A stretch of DNA of 64,000 nt from Bdellovibrio svalbardensis (GCF_029531655.1 NZ_JANRMI010000005.1:186001-250000), one strand, 5' to 3'; shown: positions 37,134 through 41,028, numbered from the stretch's first letter. Notes: a model not told the origin generated them from the sequence alone. Numbers and translations: made by a program.

Positions 37134-38033
37134 TTACGGATTGACCTGCACCTGAAAGCTAGAAATATCCGAAAGATTATTAGCCTCACCAGTATCATTG
37201 ACTTGAAGATCAATTTTGGCAGTTCCTATTTTAATTGCTTCTAAAATTGCCATCGCAGTGCCATTAATAAATCCATAACAAGTCACCTTCACAACGGATG
37301 GATCAGAAGACAGGCAAGAGTTGAATAGCAAATCCTGATTTTCCTGTGCATGCCCCGAATTTGCATAGACAGGCACCCTCAACTTCTGTCCCACATTTAA
37401 AGTTTGGGCAGCGGTGGGATTGACGAGGGGTTTCGCGTTACTGACTGGAGCATAGTGAATCCGTAAATTGCGATCTTTTAGAGGAACCGTCGCGCCATTC
37501 GACTTGATCTGAAGATCCAAGATAAATAACTCAGCTTTATCGCAACTTTCCAAACTGCCAGGACATACCGATGAAAAAGAACCGGTAATTTCGTAAATAC
37601 AATTCTGACCGGCAGTCACGCACAACTCCCCTTGCGCCGTGTACAGAGCTGGTTTGCTTGATGTTCCCACCAGACGCCGACGTAGAGATAAATTTGGGTT
37701 CGTATCCGTGCTGTCTAAAATAACGAATTCGTTAGATTCCAAAGTCGAACAACAATCTCCCGCACAAGCCCCTAGCGATCCCCCATAGGTGCAAACTCTC
37801 AACTTGTCGTTTTCTGGAGTCAGGGCCAGGCTGCTGATGAAATCAGAATTGCCGTTAATGCGATCAGTGAGTTGATACCAACTAAGCGCTCGACTGGATG
37901 AATCTTGAAATTTATGTATGTAATCTTGGAGATTGGCTAAAAGAGTTCCGCAAGCCAGCGTCAGTACGCTGACGATCAACAAGGCCACCAAGACCTCAAC
38001 AAGAGTAAAGCCTTGGACTTTGGAAGGCCTCAT
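37134..38033 (-). CDS. Minor pilin, PilV-like, with C-terminal cysteine-rich module
   Basis: A 299-residue type IV prepilin: leader MRPSKVQG, cut before FTLVEVLVALLIVS, with Glu5 present. After the helix, the ectodomain has LGACAGDCC, CPGSLESCDKAELF and a C-terminal beta domain (about 215-299) similar to a bacterial Ig-like fold. The same elements occur in the protein encoded at 40084. It is the third gene of an overlapping three-gene operon (4-nt ATGA overlap with the vWA pilin). Minor pilins of this kind prime pilus assembly and sit at the tip. Confidence 0.8.
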   Translation of the reverse strand: MRPSKVQGFTLVEVLVALLIVSVLTLACGTLLANLQDYIHKFQDSSSRALSWYQLTDRINGNSDFISSLALTPENDKLRVCTYGGSLGACAGDCCSTLESNEFVILDSTDTNPNLSLRRRLVGTSSKPALYTAQGELCVTAGQNCIYEITGSFSSVCPGSLESCDKAELFILDLQIKSNGATVPLKDRNLRIHYAPVSNAKPLVNPTAAQTLNVGQKLRVPVYANSGHAQENQDLLFNSCLSSDPSVVKVTCYGFINGTAMAILEAIKIGTAKIDLQVNDTGEANNLSDISSFQVQVNP

Positions 38034-40087
38034 TGAGTGAAAACCTTCACGACATCGGTCGATTGTAGATAGCCAGAATTAAAAATGAGCGTGTTATTAA
38101 AAAGTCGATAGTCCAAATCCTTCACCGGATTCAAGGTCGCGCCTCCTCGCACAACCTCAACAGACTTCAAAGATCCCGCGACAGAGGCTGGCAGAGTAAT
38201 ATCATCTTTTCCCAAATTATTTAAAAACGCCTGAGTCAATGAGGAGATTTTAGAACTGTAGTCATTGCTACAAATCGATACCACTTCGCCCTGCACCCCA
38301 GATAGATTGACCAGCTTTTCATATTTAGTTCCGTAAGCGGCCCCGGTAGTTAAAGGACACGTGCTACTTTGATCAGAGGGATGAATTACCGGAACAAAAT
38401 AAACATTTTTAGAAGAGTTCTTTTCTGCAACGCTCTCAATGATGGCCAGCGCCGCATCCTGAGCCATGTAGGCCTGCGATGTCCAGCTTACCATTGGCAC
38501 AACCCCTTCCCACTTCAGAAAACTACTGCCTACAGAACCACTCTGCCGATAGCATGTAGCTGGAACGTAATGGGGAAATGCCACAAGCAGGGACGCTTCC
38601 TCATTAAGGCAAACATCTGGATTTGAGGACTGCTTCAGGACAAATGGAGACTGAGTGACCGCACACTTCGAGACGGTATAGGTGCCTGAATAAACTAAAT
38701 TCGTACTGTTCCAAGATATAAGAACTGATTTAATTTTATCGGCAAATAGTGGTGCCTTGCTCATACAATCATCGCCTACTTTTGCAAAGGAATCATATAC
38801 AGAAAAAGGAATCGACACAGATCTTTGCAAGGTCGCTGGCGCACCATCCACTGTGGCATCCGCCATAACCGTAAAGCTGTTCCACTGACGATCACCCCAA
38901 TAGGTATAGGGAGTGACATGAACTTCGTTCTTAGATGTCACCGAAGAGAAGCAATCATTGAATATGTCCACGGCACCAGGCGCTACAGCCCCAGCAATAT
39001 TACCAACAAAATGAGTTTCATCATCTTCATTGGTAAGCAGCATAACGACCGTTGGCGTTTGAGCATCCACAGGAATTATTTGATCATTGGATTTAATAAT
39101 ATGAAGGATCTGGCAAAAAGCATTATCAGTTGTCGTTGCTGCTGGCGATGAAAACAACTTATCAACGCGAGCATTTAAAGCCGTCAACTTCGTGGATTTC
39201 AAATCCGAAGTATCCGACGATGAAAAATCCACCATCCCATAGTAGCTACTTCCCGAGGTCCAGAGTGGCATAAAATTAAAGCTCCGAACCTGCTCATCAA
39301 AAAAAGTCGTACCATCTGCAAGGGTTAAGAATTCAGCGAAGGATAAATCCTTCCTCACTCCACCTGGCATTATATAGCGATTTGACTTGAGAAACGTATT
39401 CGTAGAAAGTCCCAATGTATAAATCCCCACCCTGGCATTAAGACCACTCAACGCCGTGGTCAATCCACTCAATGCGGTTTTAACCCGATCCTTGGCATAA
39501 AGAAGGCTGTTGGAGTTATCCAAGAACAACAAGACATTTACATTTCGACCGGGAGAAATACTGGCATCAGGAATGAAGGTTGATACGTTGTTGATCTCTG
39601 GAACAACCATTGCGGTTTTTTCCAGAACATAGCTGGTCCCGCCCGGGCTCAGAACCTCCGTCTTAACTTTCACTACAAAATACTCGGCTTGGTCACAGCT
39701 AGTCTGATTCAGAGGGCAGTGCACGCGAAATGACAGGGTGTTATTGACGGCATCAGACAAAGATCCGCTAATACTGCGAAGAGGCTTTTCAGTTTCCAAA
39801 TCCATGGCTGTTAATGGGTAGTCCCGATTGGTATCGCATTCTACCTGATCTGCCTCTATACACTCTTTGAGATATTTATTTTGAGTGAATTTCGCGAGAT
39901 GACCGAAATACACGGGACGAGTCATATGCACGATCATCTGCTCATTCTCAATATTCCTTCCAATTTCCGACATGAGATGATCATGACCTTTTTCGACAAC
40001 ACCAAATAGCCTCAAACTCCCAAAAGATAGAATCCCAAAAATGGCCATGCCCATTAAAACTTCAATAATAGTAAAACCCCGGTTCAT
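38030..40087 (-). CDS. PilW-like minor pilin carrying a von Willebrand factor A domain
   Basis: 685 residues. The prepilin leader is very short (MNRG), followed by FTIIEVLMGMAIFGILS with Glu5. Residues about 120-150 share the SCDQAEYF motif with the two flanking pilins. From about 183 a vWA domain begins: NVLLFLDNSNS gives the metal-site D190-x-S192-x-S194, a later TTTDN (about 318-322) could supply the threonine, and MLLTNEDDE (about 349-357) the acidic residue. The domain seems enlarged by inserts. vWA modules bind ligands through a metal ion. In many species this job at the pilus tip belongs to PilY1; here it is fused to a pilin. Confidence 0.8.
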   Translation of the reverse strand: MNRGFTIIEVLMGMAIFGILSFGSLRLFGVVEKGHDHLMSEIGRNIENEQMIVHMTRPVYFGHLAKFTQNKYLKECIEADQVECDTNRDYPLTAMDLETEKPLRSISGSLSDAVNNTLSFRVHCPLNQTSCDQAEYFVVKVKTEVLSPGGTSYVLEKTAMVVPEINNVSTFIPDASISPGRNVNVLLFLDNSNSLLYAKDRVKTALSGLTTALSGLNARVGIYTLGLSTNTFLKSNRYIMPGGVRKDLSFAEFLTLADGTTFFDEQVRSFNFMPLWTSGSSYYGMVDFSSSDTSDLKSTKLTALNARVDKLFSSPAATTTDNAFCQILHIIKSNDQIIPVDAQTPTVVMLLTNEDDETHFVGNIAGAVAPGAVDIFNDCFSSVTSKNEVHVTPYTYWGDRQWNSFTVMADATVDGAPATLQRSVSIPFSVYDSFAKVGDDCMSKAPLFADKIKSVLISWNSTNLVYSGTYTVSKCAVTQSPFVLKQSSNPDVCLNEEASLLVAFPHYVPATCYRQSGSVGSSFLKWEGVVPMVSWTSQAYMAQDAALAIIESVAEKNSSKNVYFVPVIHPSDQSSTCPLTTGAAYGTKYEKLVNLSGVQGEVVSICSNDYSSKISSLTQAFLNNLGKDDITLPASVAGSLKSVEVVRGGATLNPVKDLDYRLFNNTLIFNSGYLQSTDVVKVFTQ

Positions 40088-41028
40088 GGATTCACCACCA
40101 CGTTAAATGTTTGAATCTTGGACAAGAAGTTTGTAAGACCGCCATCATTTATTTGCAGCTGGATCGTCGCGGTGCCAACGGCCACAGGAGTCAACACCAA
40201 CTGTCCAACACCCCCCACAAAGGCTTGGCACTGAATCTTCACCACAGAGTCATTGCTGCTGGAACATTGCTCGAACTTGAAATTCTGAACTTCCGACGGA
40301 TGACCAGGATCTCCAGAAACGGGAATTGTTAAAGGCAGCGCCACCTGAAGAGTTTGATCCGGCACCACGGGCAGAGAAGGACGATAGTTCACCTTGGGGA
40401 AATAAAAGGACACAAAATCCCTCGCCTTCAATTGAGAATAGGCAGGAGTCGGCACCATCTGAATTGTCACCGATAAGTACTCTGCATGATCACAACTGCC
40501 TGCACCACCAGGACAGTGAGCCGTAAAAGTAGATGTTAATCCATACACACAACTTGAAGAATCGGGTAACAGACAAAGATTTCCGGCAGAATCATAGTAA
40601 ACTGAATTGCCGGGTGCGCCGCTCAAGGTTCGTTTTGCCGCGACATCCGGATTCGTATCTAAGGGGTCTTTGAAAAAGAAGCCTTGAGAGATATTCCCCT
40701 GACAACAATTTTCAGAGCATGCGCCAAGAGCCCCTCCCTCCAGGCAGACATGCAAAGCTGTATTTTTAGCAAGAAAGAGAGAGCTTTCTGACAGCGATTT
40801 CGTTGTTGAAAGCATTTCGTGAATCGCATTTAACGAAAAAGTTCGACCGCCCCGTTTCTTAATAGACTGCATATCATCAACATAAGCCTTGGAAGTACCC
40901 ATCATACTTAAAGCCAAGGCGCCAATGAAGACGGCCATTGCCAGCATATACCCCATGATAGAGCCTCTTTGCCCCAGCCGAAGAGGACGGAACCTTGGGG
41001 GCTTCTGTCTAATTTTATGCAATTTCAT
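40084..41028 (-). CDS. PilX/GspK-like minor pilin without Glu5
   Basis: 314 residues, with GGGAGG before the ATG. A 22-residue basic leader ends in QRG, followed by SIMGYMLAMAVFIGALALSMM, a pilin helix without the usual Glu5, as in PilX or GspK tip subunits. The ectodomain is paralogous to that of the 37134 protein: LGACSENCC, DTNPDVAAKRTLSG, CPGGAGSCDHAEYL, and an Ig-like C-terminal domain ending VVVNP (the other ends VQVNP). It is the first gene of the operon and overlaps the vWA pilin by 4 nt. Gene order X-W-V is the reverse of the Pseudomonas pilV-W-X order. Confidence 0.75.
   Translation of the reverse strand: MKLHKIRQKPPRFRPLRLGQRGSIMGYMLAMAVFIGALALSMMGTSKAYVDDMQSIKKRGGRTFSLNAIHEMLSTTKSLSESSLFLAKNTALHVCLEGGALGACSENCCQGNISQGFFFKDPLDTNPDVAAKRTLSGAPGNSVYYDSAGNLCLLPDSSSCVYGLTSTFTAHCPGGAGSCDHAEYLSVTIQMVPTPAYSQLKARDFVSFYFPKVNYRPSLPVVPDQTLQVALPLTIPVSGDPGHPSEVQNFKFEQCSSSNDSVVKIQCQAFVGGVGQLVLTPVAVGTATIQLQINDGGLTNFLSKIQTFNVVVNP

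Follow-up and report, generated by a model that had tools for sequence, protein, structure and literature searches.

A minor-pilin operon of Bdellovibrio svalbardensis whose modular pilin W carries a vWA/MIDAS module akin to Bdellovibrionota lipoproteins

Predators of the Bdellovibrio type might use pili to recognise prey, and the minor pilins and tips of their type IVa pili have hardly been described. A concrete case is a three-gene locus of Bdellovibrio svalbardensis (GCF_029531655.1 NZ_JANRMI010000005.1:186001-250000), on the minus strand at positions 37134-41028 of the window (the whole 64,000-nucleotide stretch analysed, part of contig 5 of a 3.9 Mb genome); the predatory life of this organism is presumed from its family, the Bdellovibrionaceae. 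The locus encodes three prepilin-like proteins, here called X, W and V, the second of which bears a von Willebrand factor A (vWA) domain with a metal ion-dependent adhesion site (MIDAS) motif. In our judgement the operon is probably one of three paralogous heterotrimeric minor-pilin tip complexes for a type IVa pilus, with the MIDAS head of W binding a surface ligand. It would thereby supply a concrete candidate for a tip adhesin, existing in three diverged versions, with a head like the module of a lipoprotein involved in prey invasion.

The three open reading frames, 41028-40084 (X, 314 aa), 40087-38030 (W, 685 aa) and 38033-37134 (V, 299 aa), lie where the original prediction had placed them, and both of the ATGA stop/start overlaps it described are genuine (X-W at 40084..40087 and W-V at 38030..38033, minus strand); judged from these two overlaps, the genes form a translationally coupled operon. 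A putative ribosome site, GGAGGG, precedes the ATG of X, the first gene, and no sigma-70-like promoter for the operon stood out on inspection.

The prepilin N-termini proposed for W and V are borne out by the N_methyl profile (PF07963), which scores above its cut-off of 21.2 bits on W (24.0 bits; MNRG/FTIIE) and reaches 32.2 bits (6.8e-8) on V (MRPSKVQG/FTLVE). Both proteins show the marks of a class III prepilin, namely a short leader ending in Gly, Glu5 and a hydrophobic helix. X, at 40084..41028, gave no N_methyl match across its 314 residues and shares only the leader Gly: its leader ends in GQRG and the mature protein begins SIMGY, with Tyr at position 5, so that Glu5 is absent, as predicted, and as it is in the X paralogues aligned. 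A missing Glu5 is a trait of PilX/GspK-type pilins. The pilin part of W (residues 1-159; 39611..40087) aligns with those of X and V at an hhalign E of 3.3e-19 with the N-terminal helix and 6e-11 without it, and in all three a shared CP...CDxAxY motif closes this part; by these alignments X, W and V are mutual paralogues built on one Cys-rich pilin scaffold. In X and V the scaffold is followed by an Ig-like module, placed by alignment at approximately 40087..40395 in X (...INDGGLTNFLSKIQTFNVVVNP) and 37137..37436 in V, one family member of which matches Big_1 (E 0.0027). The PilV/W/X-like names given to the three proteins hold only approximately: with the NCBIfam PilV model TIGR02523, V reaches 30.6 where 52.2 is required, the other PilV/W/X models score lower, and none of X, W or V reaches a curated NCBIfam cut-off for equivalog assignment, so that NCBIfam appears to support generic prepilins rather than PilV, PilW or PilX by name.

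After its pilin part, W (38030..40087) continues into about 525 residues of a module different from the Ig-like module of X and V, and thus has the composition of a modular pilin, in which a pilin module is joined in a single chain to a distinct functional domain. Identifying this module as vWA required indirect means. Pfam VWA profiles gave no match on the W of the window (the best, VWA_2, reached E 0.059 in the paralogues), and neither NCBIfam nor phmmer against the PDB alone revealed a vWA domain; the Pfam check suggested for the prediction therefore came back negative, the Pfam cut-off being an aid to detection and not a definition of the fold. Profile-profile comparison and structure nonetheless find the fold. 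The W module aligns with 13 Bdellovibrionota MIDAS lipoproteins (hhalign probability 99.1, E 1.3e-18), and the profile of these lipoproteins in turn matches vWA domains of known structure at E of about 1e-3, among them those of integrin alpha-L and a cell wall surface anchor protein. Direct comparison of the W profile with the genome's canonical vWA proteins of BatA/B type yielded only short, insignificant alignments (probability 2-5), as did the A3 profile against the PDB, so that W is connected to vWA by way of the lipoproteins and the fold. AlphaFold2, given the window module with four relatives (five rows), modelled the core at a predicted local distance difference test (pLDDT) score of 60-78 and a predicted template modelling score of 0.46. 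In Foldseek this model best matched, among PDB entries, the pilus adhesins PitA and SpaC together with headpieces of integrin beta; VIA comparison gave Z 16.2 over 181 residues at 2.8 Å to an I-domain, and Z of about 15 over 220-235 residues at about 4-5 Å to integrin beta chains, the latter spanning model residues 8-525 and including the domain that hosts their vWA. Lipoprotein profile, AlphaFold model and structural matches agree that W carries a vWA/MIDAS fold, and they support the claim that such a module forms part of a pilin within a compact minor-pilin set.

The arrangement predicted for this head, whose residue ranges derive from the AlphaFold model and are approximate, is more elaborate than the single enlarged vWA domain at about residues 183-480 first proposed. 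The vWA core is split into residues 180-358 (39014..39550) and 542-625 (38213..38464) around an insertion of about 185 residues (359-541; 38465..39013), cap-like and with conserved Cys. Residues 160-179 (39551..39610) and the last 60 or so, 626-685 (38033..38212), would form the N- and C-terminal parts of a small beta domain; the C-terminal part matches the integrin-beta hybrid type and, weakly, CBM_X2 (E 0.042, falling to 0.0054 in the best-scoring paralogue). Of the motifs that had been noticed in W, DNSNS and the NEDD of LLTNEDD are present and invariant across the copies. The MIDAS motif DNSNS occupies residues 190-194 (39506..39520), with D190 and S192 invariant across 12 aligned pilin and lipoprotein modules, and the acidic loop NEDD, residues 353-356 (39020..39031), has its E and D invariant in the module alignment. 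The DxSxS part and the acidic loop of the five-residue metal site DxSxS...T...D are conserved, and W may bind a metal.

These features place W beside the MIDAS lipoproteins of its own phylum, which are common in the Bdellovibrionota genomes examined. The W module aligns with those bearing an FQNC lipobox over its full length, cysteines included: the insertion falls after the acidic loop at an equal position and is of similar size in the lipoproteins, and 6 Cys are invariant across the whole module. W shares with this lipoprotein class a vWA domain set inside an N/C-terminal beta domain, and has a pilin module in place of the lipobox. Bd0875 of B. bacteriovorus, a lipoprotein of this kind by its description, requires its MIDAS for normal prey invasion, as tested with E213A (PMC11003981), and the NEDD of W is likely the counterpart of the acidic residue altered there. 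By their description, Bd0875 and Bd1483 (PMC11003981) resemble W in having the MIDAS domain in a small beta domain of N- and C-terminal parts and an acidic loop residue, Bd0875 with an extra cap region; they are lipid-anchored and not on a pilin, and the cap described for Bd0875, at aa 143-176, is a short one that lies elsewhere in the chain. PilY1, from which the original prediction had derived the module, is a poorer fit. In Pseudomonas and Myxococcus, PilY1 is likewise a vWA adhesin presented by a minor-pilin set (PilV/W/X/FimU), and Myxococcus also has three sets; its vWA, however, belongs to a protein of its own that is not a pilin and has a C-terminal beta-propeller, of which the W set has none, the PilY1/PilC beta-propeller profile PF05567 giving no match in X, W or V. 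Judged on these comparisons, W is not a fused PilY1. A search of the whole genome for PF05567 also found nothing, but the control genomes gave no match either, so the absence of PilY1 is unproven.

Searching with the 685-aa W recovered two more full-length copies in the genome, at 34% identity, each within a cassette that also holds X- and V-like pilins: one at C4:122-126k in the order X-W-V, and one at C1:880-885k in the order W-X-V, among mur and fts genes. As the set of three genes is found at two further places in this genome and at one place in a congener (G020), chance is excluded as an explanation of the grouping. In each of the trees of W, X and V the C4 and C1 copies are sisters, which shows that a cassette is duplicated, and evolves, as a whole; the window copy is nearer to those of G349 and G350, with moderate support (85/81), and is either older than the other two or was acquired separately. 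Across 369 Bdellovibrionota genomes, full-length W occurs in 5: this one (3 copies), G020 (1), G095 (2), G350 (1) and G349 (1), with one further copy cut by a contig end in G095 and one cut in G349. The X/V partners, counted at full length, are confined to these same five genomes and accompany W there even where the genes are unlinked; the naive P of 1.8e-11 for this is overstated, the five genomes representing about three lineages. That every Bdellovibrio carries the cassette is ruled out, 2 of the 24 genus genomes searched having it. Partial W matches elsewhere were considered as further pilins and rejected, those read being lipoproteins with the exception of one in another genus (G029). A contig scan of GTDB found nothing with the pilin alignment and lipoproteins only with the W module.

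The vWA prepilin that forms the G029 exception is more distantly related; in the tree it sits on a long branch apart from the rest, and in the genome it stands beside a prepilin with a fibrinogen-C-like domain. The cluster (L056:4178-8299) comprises three prepilins, of 771 aa (vWA), 423 aa (PF00147, E 0.0005, just below the cut-off) and 188 aa, and is possibly an independent vWA fusion with a lectin-type tip.

The genome encodes one prepilin peptidase and PilB/PilT-type ATPases, together with 22 N_methyl-type prepilin matches at about ten places. On the analogy of PilB, CpaL, the Kil tips and Bd0875, we envisage that the single PilD-type peptidase would cut X, W and V, whose N-terminal helices would bundle, prime the pilus and remain at its tip. 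There W would display its vWA/MIDAS head inside the small beta domain, an arrangement like that of integrin-beta headpieces and the predation adhesin Bd0875, while X and V would display Ig-like heads. The metal site of W would bind a surface ligand, most likely on prey or else on other surfaces, with three versions of the head to hand, and the head may change shape under the pulling force of pilus retraction; with the adhesion domain, the pilus can probably take hold of specific targets, prey among them. More tentatively, one type IV pilus could be armed with exchangeable tip heterotrimers bearing integrin-beta-like heads, the same adhesin module serving as lipoprotein or pilus tip, with the copy number and divergence of tips setting prey range and retraction force opening the head.

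Several observations weigh against this tip-complex reading or narrow it. The canonical MIDAS threonine of W is not clearly conserved; the lone 685-aa sequence did not fold in AlphaFold (pLDDT 35), and the insertion was left without a confident model (pLDDT <50). In G095 (L117, L118, L119) the W genes are solitary, with no neighbouring minor pilins and the X-V pair on another contig; W and V are unlinked in G349 and adjacent in G350. With W solitary in two genomes and its partners elsewhere, a tight operon is not obligatory. In G350 and G349 (L129, L130, L131), moreover, W itself has Gly and not Glu at position 5, so that it is W, not X, in which Glu5 is missing, and neither genome yielded an X-type partner. 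Finally, a cassette so sparsely distributed in the genus is not needed for predation in general.

Other functions for the set can be imagined, each with something in its favour. The head of W could be mainly a sensor of surface or force that signals contact, as proposed for CpaL and PilY1, and not a prey-selective adhesin. Integrin beta headpieces, which the W model resembles, respond to force. CpaL, a vWA minor pilin, has been linked to surface sensing in Caulobacter (PMC12607857). No signalling partner, however, is encoded beside all cassettes, and three diverged copies with a patchy distribution fit diversification of ligands better; a mainly sensory role is in our view unlikely, adhesion and sensing being in any case compatible with each other. 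We regard it as quite improbable that the complexes tip a Tad/Kil-type killing pilus like that of Myxococcus KilLMN instead of a type IVa pilus. Four paralogous tip clusters of three genes, each including one enlarged subunit, are known from Myxococcus, and Bdellovibrio has been predicted to possess a Kil-like tip (PMC12075869); the genome also encodes, at C1:762-773k, a small Flp-like pilin and another ATPase of the secretion type. Yet KilLMN are TadE/F/G homologues, whereas W and V begin with the class III GFTxxE of type IVa and type II secretion pilins, and the cassettes are not near tad genes. The proteins could also be type II secretion pseudopilins with W as a substrate-binding tip: an X without Glu5 alongside V and W recalls GspK-I-J, W also giving a weak NCBIfam GspJ match (19 bits against 64.85). 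A separate Gsp-like prepilin set nonetheless adjoins a GspE-type ATPase at C4:150-155k, the W module matches surface adhesins and the cassettes are accessory, all of which makes pseudopilins a very remote prospect.

Modular pilins with vWA domains are already known in monoderms and diderms. PilB of Streptococcus sanguinis is a bimodular type IV pilin with vWA, an adhesin modelled at the tip, described in a paper that lists >1,200 modular pilins (PMC8179133). In PilB as in W a vWA/MIDAS module is grafted onto a pilin, and PilB works with a second modular pilin bearing a lectin domain; it belongs, however, to a Gram-positive pilus, whereas the vWA of W is invisible to Pfam, holds an insertion of about 185 aa, lies inside a beta domain and resembles Bdellovibrionota lipoproteins, and W, unlike PilB, is encoded in three paralogous operons together with Ig-tipped partners. 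In CpaL of Caulobacter crescentus (PMC12607857), too, a pilin-like module is joined to a split vWA with an insertion, and a tip position alongside two smaller minor pilins is proposed, but CpaL belongs to a Tad pilus and its insertion lies early in the vWA (residues 204-383) and not after the acidic loop. The four tip complexes of Myxococcus xanthus, KilLMN Tip1-4, are used in prey killing (PMC12075869) and resemble X-W-V as scattered paralogous three-pilin clusters of a predator with one enlarged Cys-rich subunit; they differ in having TadE/F/G-type pilins and, in KilN4, a distal domain of no known fold. What appears new is that a pilin makes use of the module of Bdellovibrionota MIDAS lipoproteins, that its paralogous partners are Ig-tipped, that a single genome holds three cassettes and that domain libraries fail to recognise the module; no report of such pilins in Bdellovibrio was found in the literature outside subscription papers. 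A vWA modular-pilin family invisible to domain databases implies that surveys of modular pilins undercount.

From a reading of the sequences, the operon itself lies between two genes on one side, one chemoreceptor-like and the other porin-like, and, on the other side, genes for a small membrane protein and tldD/tldE-like proteins, neighbours that look unrelated to pili. The C1 cassette is followed immediately, on its own strand, by a gene for a secreted reprolysin/M6-like metalloprotease (L024:3971-5497), which the other two cassettes are without. Elsewhere in the genome, L081:1874-6125 and L083:2635-7141 are paralogous minor-pilin loci whose first proteins, of 933 and 990 aa, have a pilin-like N-terminus and a coiled-coil or proline-rich middle, a layout that recalls KilN-type tips. 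L085:5798-7393 holds a prepilin pair, the larger with a weak C-terminal DUF4214 match (E 0.01), adjoining a gametolysin-like metalloprotease gene (PF05548), and L082:5090-7408 is a further cassette of three prepilins, whose C-terminal modules are rich in Cys and carry CDFC motifs.

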